Of a DNA stretch of 64,000 nt, positions 40,991 to 42,889 are shown piece by piece. Under the pieces are notes generated by a model. That model saw nothing but the letters and a program-made list of their open reading frames with translations, was not told where the DNA came from and ran no database searches. Positions within the stretch are counted from its first letter, which is position 1. Each line of letters begins with the position of its first letter. The position numbers were made by a program, and so were the translations under genes. Source of the DNA: Caulobacter sp. (GTDB lineage Bacteria; Pseudomonadota; Alphaproteobacteria; Caulobacterales; Caulobacteraceae); NCBI GenBank assembly GCA_028291055.1, contig JAQGIP010000032.1, forward strand, positions 1 through 64,000, read 5' to 3'.

Positions 40991-41896
40991 TCAGGCCGTC
41001 GCCTTCGCCCTCGCGACCACGCCCAGAATCGCCTTCGCCATCTGATCATGCAGCTCGACCGGCAGGTCATGCCCCATGCCCGGGATCAGCAGCAGCTCCG
41101 CGCCCGGGATGTTGGCCGCCGTGTCCTTGCCGCCCTCGACCGGCACCAGGGCGTCGTCCACCCCGTGGATCACCAGGGTCGGCGCGGAGATGGTCTTCAG
41201 CTTCGGCCGCCGGTCCGGCGAGGCCATCACCCCGGCGTACTGGCGCATGAAGCCCAGCGGCGAGAAGGACCGGTTGAAGTCGCTCAGCGCCCGCTCGCGG
41301 ATGCCGGCCTCGTCGCCCGGATAGCCGGGGGAGCCGATGGCGCGCGCCGATTTGACGGCGTTGGCCAGGAAGCCCTCGATGTCCTCGCGCGGATCGGGAC
41401 CGCGGTTGTTGAGCACGGCGATGGCCTCGGGCTTGGAGGGGGGCAGCTCGCGGTTGCCGGTGGTCGACATCACCGAGGTCAGCGACAGCACGCGGTCCGG
41501 ATAGTCCGCCGCCACCAGCTGGGCGATCATGCCGCCCATGGACGCGCCAACGATGTGGGCGCGGGCAATGCCAAGCGCATCCAGCAGGCCCACCGCGTCG
41601 GCGGCCATGTCCGCGAGCGTATAGGCGGCGGACGGCGTCTGGCCCGCCGCGAGCGCCTGCAGGATGGCGGGCACGTCCGGCATGCCAGCGGCCTCCAGCT
41701 TTTCCGAAAGACCCACGTCGCGGTTGTCGAACAGGATCACCCGGTGACCGGCCTCGACCAGCCTGGCGTAGAAGGCTGGCGGCCAGCGCGTCATCTGGGC
41801 GCCCAGGCCCATGATCAGCAGGATGGGTGCGGGATCGGCGGCGTTACCGTGGCTCTCGTAATAGAGGTCGATGCCGTTGGACTTGATGTGGGGCAT
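40991..41896 (-). CDS. Alpha/beta hydrolase
   Basis: LLIMGLGAQMTRWPP, VGASMGGMIAQLVAADYPDRV (GxSxG), C-terminal GMGHDLP. Confidence 0.9.
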   Translation of the reverse strand: MPHIKSNGIDLYYESHGNAADPAPILLIMGLGAQMTRWPPAFYARLVEAGHRVILFDNRDVGLSEKLEAAGMPDVPAILQALAAGQTPSAAYTLADMAADAVGLLDALGIARAHIVGASMGGMIAQLVAADYPDRVLSLTSVMSTTGNRELPPSKPEAIAVLNNRGPDPREDIEGFLANAVKSARAIGSPGYPGDEAGIRERALSDFNRSFSPLGFMRQYAGVMASPDRRPKLKTISAPTLVIHGVDDALVPVEGGKDTAANIPGAELLLIPGMGHDLPVELHDQMAKAILGVVARAKATA

Positions 41897-41999
41897 TGAT
41901 GCCTCTCCTGATGTTTCCCGCCCGCCAGAAAGCGGGAAGCGCAGGCGCGGTCAAGCGACCCCGACGAGGGGCCGCGCCGGCAACAGCGATACCGCAAAT

Positions 42000-42189
42000 G
42001 GGGACATGATCCTATTTCCGCTCACCCCCTCTCGTCAGCGCCGGCCTGGGCCGGAAATAGGTTCGTGTCCCCGATTTGCGGGCGCGGCGCTGAAAGGCTG
42101 GTGGCGGCAGGAATTGGGGACACGAACCCATTTCCGGCCAACACTCCGGACGGCGGTCAAGCCGCGCCCGGAAATGGGATCATGTCCCC
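42000..42189. repeat. Four copies of a 20-bp motif in alternating orientation
   Basis: GGGGACATGATCCTATTTCC 42000-42019(+), GGGGACACGAACCTATTTCC 42053-42072(-), GGGGACACGAACCCATTTCC 42116-42135(+), GGGGACATGATCCCATTTCC 42170-42189(-). Confidence 0.95.
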
Positions 42190-42265
42190 ATTTCCCGCGT
42201 CGGCCCCCAGCCATCGCCGGGACGAGCGCACGGATCTAGGGCAGCGCTTCCAATGGGTGCGCACC

Positions 42266-42889
42266 CTAAGCTGAAGTGGCCACGCCCCACTCGTTCCAGC
42301 CGGCGATGCGCGGCGTGCCCGGCAGATACATCTTCTCCACCCGGTCCATCAGGAAGCCCGCCTTGGCGATCGACGCCGCGACGGGCCGCGTCAGGTGGCA
42401 GCCGCCGGCGATCGCCTTCCAGACAGGCTCGACGCGGAACTGCCAGCGGCGCACGTCGATGTCGGGCGCCAGGCCGTGCTCGCAGAACAGCAACCGGCCC
42501 TTGGGCTTCAACACCCGCCTGGCCTCCGCCAGCGCCTTGTCGGGGTCCTGGACCGAGCAGAGGGTGAAGGTGCAGACCACGCAGTCGAAGCTGTGGTCCT
42601 CGTAGGGCAGCGACTCCGCCGTCCCATCGCGCAGCTTGACCTTCAGCCCCTCGGGCCGTGGGGCGGCTTCCGCCCGCGCGCGCAAGGCCGCCGAGGGATC
42701 AACCCCAGCCACGCTCGTCACCTTGGCGGGATCATAGAAGGCTAGGTTCAGGCCGCCGCCCATGCCCAGTTCCAGCACCCTGCCCTCGGCCAGCGGCACG
42801 ATCTTGGCCCGCTGCTTCATGATCGGCTTGCTGCCGCAGGCGCAGCCGATCAGGCGCGGCATGATGTGGCGGTCGTAGAAGGAAGTCAT
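42266..42889 (-). CDS. Class I SAM-dependent methyltransferase (METTL7/TMT1-like)
   Basis: GRVLELGMGGGLNLAFYDPAKVTSVAGVDPS motif I; N-term YDRHIMPRLIGCACGSKPIMKQR; CTFTLCSVQDPDKALAEARRVLKPKGRLLFCEHG. Confidence 0.87.
   Translation of the reverse strand: MTSFYDRHIMPRLIGCACGSKPIMKQRAKIVPLAEGRVLELGMGGGLNLAFYDPAKVTSVAGVDPSAALRARAEAAPRPEGLKVKLRDGTAESLPYEDHSFDCVVCTFTLCSVQDPDKALAEARRVLKPKGRLLFCEHGLAPDIDVRRWQFRVEPVWKAIAGGCHLTRPVAASIAKAGFLMDRVEKMYLPGTPRIAGWNEWGVATSA

Follow-up and report, generated by a model that had tools for sequence, protein, structure and literature searches.

Di Nocera et al. (2013, PMC3733652) described, under the name TIRYT, RAYT-like genes flanked on both sides by terminal inverted repeats with a common GGGGWSAS head, together with TIRtron repeats, which are found singly, as dimers or in groups. 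Most TIRYT fall in subclass 2.1 of the TnpA-Y1 transposases, with a C-terminal HTH (Quentin et al. 2018, PMC6006769), and the E. coli enzyme requires a bulge in the stem of its REP (PMC8266576). There is as yet no settled account of the way in which REP-like repeats spread, and studies of the GGGGAC-ended (TIRYT) branch are scarce; a literature search recovered no relevant paper joining GGGGAC with RAYT. Here we analyze a 64,000-nucleotide stretch of DNA from Caulobacter sp. (the window), whose host genome (G000) comprises 4.99 Mb in 154 contigs. The feature described below is interpreted, with a probability of about 0.8, as a copy of a repeat of the TIRYT/REP kind that is species-specific and non-autonomous and is dispersed as a 210-bp inverted-hairpin unit.

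The initial annotation of the window reported four copies of a 20-nt motif in +,-,+,- order, lying between a hydrolase and a methyltransferase gene. All four 20-mers were recovered as exact matches, with the half-site letters as given, and the number of motif sites in the window at three or fewer mismatches (4) compares with 0.02 expected by chance. Each 20-mer is a single arm within a longer stem, and the conserved unit reaches from 41992 to 42201 ( Table 1 ). Together the four repeats form the arms of a single composite element, made of two imperfect hairpins in opposite orientation, alpha and beta, which differ in their loops and flanks. In window-family hairpins 73-75 nt separate the outer arm ends. 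The location was also borne out: the element sits between the methyltransferase stop and the hydrolase start, both genes being on the - strand.

Table 1. Features of the composite element and its neighbors (positions in the window).
Feature	Position	Strand	Description or basis
Whole composite element, 210 bp	41992..42201	+	CCGCAAAT-alpha hairpin-centre-beta hairpin-ATTTCCCGCGTC
Alpha hairpin, ATG arm followed by ACG arm, flanks CCGCAAAT / GATTTGCGG	41992..42081	+	Arms and flanks kept in seven copies; folding
Arm 1, outer, ATG type, GGGGACATGATCCTATTTCC	42000..42019	+	Exact motif match
Arm 2, inner, ACG type, GGGGACACGAACCTATTTCC	42053..42072	-	Exact motif match
Centre between hairpins	42082..42107	+	Kept between copies in alignment
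Beta hairpin, read on the - strand as ATG arm followed by ACG arm, flanks CAGGAATT / ATTTCCCGCGTC	42108..42201	-	Alignment; copies of beta alone at C116 and C15
Arm 3, inner, ACG type, GGGGACACGAACCCATTTCC	42116..42135	+	Exact motif match
Arm 4, outer, ATG type, GGGGACATGATCCCATTTCC	42170..42189	-	Exact motif match
Neighboring alpha/beta hydrolase gene, start facing element, outside it	40991..41896	-	ORF; listed NCBIfam esterase/hydrolase matches all under cut-off
Neighboring class I SAM methyltransferase gene, stop 64 bp beyond element, outside it	42266..42889	-	ORF; listed NCBIfam methyltransferase matches all under cut-off

At three or fewer mismatches the motif occurs at 83 sites throughout the host genome, including 34 exact ones, where the reversed-pattern control gives 0 and 1; all arm families together form 104 ATG-to-ACG hairpins, the reversed pattern giving none. 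Seven full-length copies of 206-210 bp with sharp ends were found; turned to one orientation, they align from CCGCAAAT to ATTTCCCGCG, and the sequences beyond both ends are unrelated. BLAST of 41992-42201 returned a 99% copy at C119:16382-16591 and five further copies at 86-89%, as well as solo beta-hairpin copies at C116 and C15. Since the C119 copy is nearly identical to that of the window (207 of 210 positions, 3 differences) and has unrelated flanks, the element moves or disperses as a whole unit. Dispersed copies occur as singles, dimers and groups, as TIRtron repeats do.

Partial copies are also present. Two solo copies with two arms (L131, L134) combine the alpha left flank and the beta right flank with a hybrid second arm (ATG plus AACC), a structure that fits the product expected from recombination between arms 2 and 4, which would delete the intervening sequence. 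A third locus (L140) is compatible with the same event, with the switch placed earlier, while L144 retains a collapsed alpha hairpin and L135 lacks alpha. The genome also carries no fewer than five other arm families whose head is the same or similar (L150-L190), namely GTACG, CACCC/CACGG, ATCGG, AWACC and the symmetric AGGGACACACACC. Longer arrays comprise eight arms arising from tandem repeats of one hairpin (L164, C53:14512-14814) and seven arms (L159, C41:19240-19547).

The two halves of the motif behave differently. The left half (ATGATCC or ACGAACC) is the arm identity, with ATG in the outer and ACG in the inner arms. About 60 loci, picked from motif-pattern matches, were read and 29 gave clean four-arm runs; of these, 27 follow the order ATG-ACG-ACG-ATG (25 exactly, plus L154 and L165, each with an extra neighboring arm), the exceptions being L155 (T-T-C-T) and L166 (C-T-T-C). 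The latter (C57:14280-14419) is the sole clean four-arm run in reverse order, ACG outer and ATG inner, which is also the order in the hairpins immediately adjoining the transposase gene described below. The same outer/inner rule is found in families that differ in their remaining sequence (GGGGACAYGTACG, GGGGACAYGAWACC, GGGGACRYGAWCGG). At position 14, in the right half, all four bases occur across the family. Partners within a hairpin match at this position in 15 of 23 pairs (shuffled mean 7.5, p about 0.0008), or in 8/14 against 5.4 when four-arm copies alone are considered (p=0.11), and partners in a nested arrangement (arms 1-4 and 2-3) in 4/14 (shuffled mean 4.6). These counts, which come from copies that share ancestry, are only suggestive of a tendency to match the hairpin partner. 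The match of outer and inner pairs proposed in the initial annotation thus holds for the ATG/ACG half and fails at position 14. As to whether the halves assort at random elsewhere, which would make the arrangement coincidental, the left half does not (27/29), and the right half varies by copy and tends to track its hairpin partner and not the 2x2 scheme. The 2x2 pattern is for the most part a fixed rule of the element's design, the left half being the rule and the right half variable.

The difference between arms produces, on one strand of each hairpin, a T.G wobble at position 8 and a T.T mismatch at position 11, and on the opposite strand A.C and A.A. These T.G/T.T irregularities mark the 'top' strand of the hairpin, and two ATG-to-ACG hairpins set in inverted order present ATG outside and ACG inside. 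In other species of the genus, compact hairpins with the position-8 asymmetry carry T/A at position 11 in 21 of 30 cases; these 30 were hand-picked as the YG arm type from listed matches, so that the position-8 count is itself no evidence. Families with symmetric arms are also present (G019, G034, G021), and some belong to RAYT-like genes of the genus, which indicates that the ATG/ACG asymmetry is not universal. By analogy with the bulge that the E. coli enzyme needs, the stem irregularities may plausibly act as a recognition feature for a transposase.

That alternative foldings are available, as had been anticipated, was supported by energies computed on both strands. With DNA parameters the nested fold reaches -70.9 kcal/mol on the + strand against -62.2 for the sum of the two half-folds, and -67.6 against -67.2 kcal/mol on the - strand; with RNA parameters the values are -127.0 and -111.0 (+) and -119.8 and -116.8 (-). 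Compared with shuffled sequence the structure is much more stable (z = -8.5, DNA parameters, + strand). The nested fold is the energy minimum on both strands, yet position 14 lacks nested covariation, and it was rejected as the selected structure. With DNA parameters the two-hairpin fold comes close to this minimum, the gap being 0.4 kcal/mol for the - strand and 8.7 kcal/mol for the + strand. Both architectures are possible according to these models, and the local hairpins would require only nearby sequence. Rfam matches to the plant microRNA families MIR8670 and MIR1858 and to RsmW were far below gathering scores and were set aside as chance matches to a hairpin.

A single gene of the host genome exceeds the cut-off for PF01797 (Y1_Tnp, HUH), at C46:14877-15503 (51.8 bits against 23); the same protein scores 71.9 bits with the NCBIfam model REP_Tyr_transpos, under its cut-off of 80. 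Two complete GGGGACAYGTACG-family elements, each with four arms, lie one on either side of this gene (C46:14771-14902 and C46:15556-15691), and the first of them overlaps the 3' end of the gene by 26 bp, so that the last codons are inside an arm of the adjoining element (L161, C46:14877-14902). Alignment of this sister family by its centre failed, the arms alone being conserved and the loops and centres variable. The proposal of a REP-like repeat involving RAYT-like transposases is supported. The expected bracketing of a RAYT/Y1 gene, characteristic of TIRYT, is seen for the sister family; no Y1 gene bracketed by window-family arms (GGGGACAYGAWCC) was found. The cognate enzyme of the window family may have been lost, may be unassembled, or may be that of the sister family. 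A tree of 36 RAYT-like proteins places the C46 protein in a clade of 13 members from Caulobacterales (support 85/100), within which five of six proteins with asymmetric arms group together, the C46 protein being outside this group. RAYT-like proteins from four genomes of the genus (G021, G018, G029 and G025) are identical to proteins in Caulobacter sp. records (AP07 and metagenome bins).

Elsewhere, RAYT-like genes bracketed by GGGGAC-headed inverted repeats occur in congeners and in distant phyla, and most of the RAYT-like relatives in the genome collection have inward-facing GGGGAC heads on both sides. Two such genes of Caulobacterales (L054, L057) are arranged as ATG-ACG, gene, ACG-ATG, that is, the four-arm order with the gene in mid-unit. 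One RAYT-like gene of G019 is surrounded by arms (GGGGACACGCACCATTTTCC) that recur as pairs at other sites of that genome. RAYT-like genes of many phyla (L058-L130) show a single GGGGAC head on each side, often in a AATTCCGGGGACACCATACTTAATT-like context, and at one of them (L088) the small stem AAATNGG/CCNATTT differs between the two ends with pairing preserved. In the genus, GGGGACA hairpins were detected in 11 of 16 genomes with a Y1 gene, a count to which the gene's own flanking repeats contribute, and in 10 of 45 without (one-sided Fisher p=0.0013). One contig of the same genus (G076:C1) contains 20 compact GGGGACA hairpins, nearly all ATG/ACG, and no Y1 transposase gene was recognized in that genome; this orphan family makes the association imperfect. 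Among the 397 other genomes searched within the order, none matched the 20-mer of the window family, and 60 relatives had only stray single sites at 2 mismatches.

The elements accumulate just 3' of gene ends. With gene calls based on a codon-usage score trained on 27 window genes, 53 elements were classified: convergent genes flank 24 of them, co-directional genes 27 and divergent genes 2, and the majority of the co-directional copies are closer to the stop of the upstream gene than to the next start. A precise empty site for the window insertion was not found, the hydrolase and methyltransferase genes being non-adjacent in the congeners checked. The best DNA matches of the genus to the locus have at most 80% identity and cover one neighbor gene or the other, and where both genes were seen in one genome they were on different contigs or far apart.

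Several explanations of these patterns were considered. The initial annotation favored a local origin, by duplication and inversion of a REP doublet on site or by segmental conversion between arms. Four similar arms of alternating orientation and the traces of arm-to-arm recombination at L131 and L134 are what this would leave; however, the same two distinct hairpins with the same centre recur at seven loci, and the outer/inner rule extends to families of different sequence, which renders such an origin hardly credible. Terminal inverted repeats, sharp ends, small size and dispersal would equally suit a MITE of a classical DDE transposon, its arms recognized double-stranded by a DDE transposase. 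This we consider very unlikely, given that arms of the same kind surround Y1 (HUH) genes in this genome and many others, and that the ends of the aligned copies bear no evident direct target repeat, there being no empty site to compare.

Whatever their origin, the elements could now function mainly as host 3'-end structures, such as transcription terminators or mRNA stabilizers. The strong avoidance of divergent intergenic regions, the position of most co-directional copies and the stability relative to shuffled sequence are consistent with this role, but selection purging promoter insertions would give the same placement, and the absence of the window family from all other genomes searched in the order argues against a conserved host role; as a principal explanation it is unlikely. 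For the dispersed TIRYT/REP-kind unit, we infer that the window family was moved by the C46 transposase, or by a relative of it since lost, through a single-strand mechanism. An HUH (Y1) transposase of the REP-associated type would recognize the folded single strand, the probable cues being the GGGGAC foot and the irregularities of the stem, and would mobilize the whole unit, copies building up just past the 3' ends of genes. It is possible, though we lean against it, that the irregularities at positions 8 and 11 are kept as marks of strand polarity for the HUH enzyme, resisting the homogenization seen at position 14; the four-arm unit would then be a single-strand substrate, one top-strand plus one bottom-strand hairpin, derived from or mimicking the ends of the transposase gene's own element, stripped of the gene. 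One transposase gene, some 100 hairpins belonging to several related families, recent copies that are nearly identical, and recombinant derivatives are all found in this genome; with the fixed rule of stem mismatches, this material makes substrate recognition directly testable.

Compared with known systems, the element resembles REPIN/BIME and RAYT of E. coli and Pseudomonas (PMC3116915, PMC8266576) in being extragenic and built of polar, imperfect hairpins in inverted pairs (27/29 four-arm runs), in the single transposase gene flanked by repeats, here of the sister family, and in stem irregularities reminiscent of the bulge required by the E. coli REP enzyme (PMC8266576). It departs from them in lacking the classical GTAG/GGAG foot, its flanks being CCGCAAAT, GATTTGCGG, CAGGAATT and ATTTCCCGCGTC, and in hairpins (arms of at least 20 nt, loops of about 33 nt) much longer than REPs of 20-50 nt; hairpins of 28-37 nt occur in congeners. 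With IS200/IS605 it shares the HUH Y1 transposase and subterminal hairpins as recognition structures, but the transposase is single-copy and of the REP-associated type, and the ends are mostly in inverted order. The closest likeness is to TIRYT/TIRtron, in the GGGGAC-headed inverted repeats around a Y1/HUH transposase, some of them double palindromic, and in the dispersed copies; since the 208-aa C46 protein has no detectable C-terminal HTH (Pfam gives only Y1_Tnp at E up to 0.05), the family is assigned to the TIRtron kind and not to subclass 2.1. The ACG arms (GGGGACAC) fit the GGGGWSAS head, whereas the ATG arms (GGGGACAT) miss its last letter, and the main unit is a four-arm composite of fixed ATG-ACG-ACG-ATG order. 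All this fits a kind of repeat that is already known, TIRYT/TIRtron organized like inverted REP pairs, represented here by a new family of tidy architecture.
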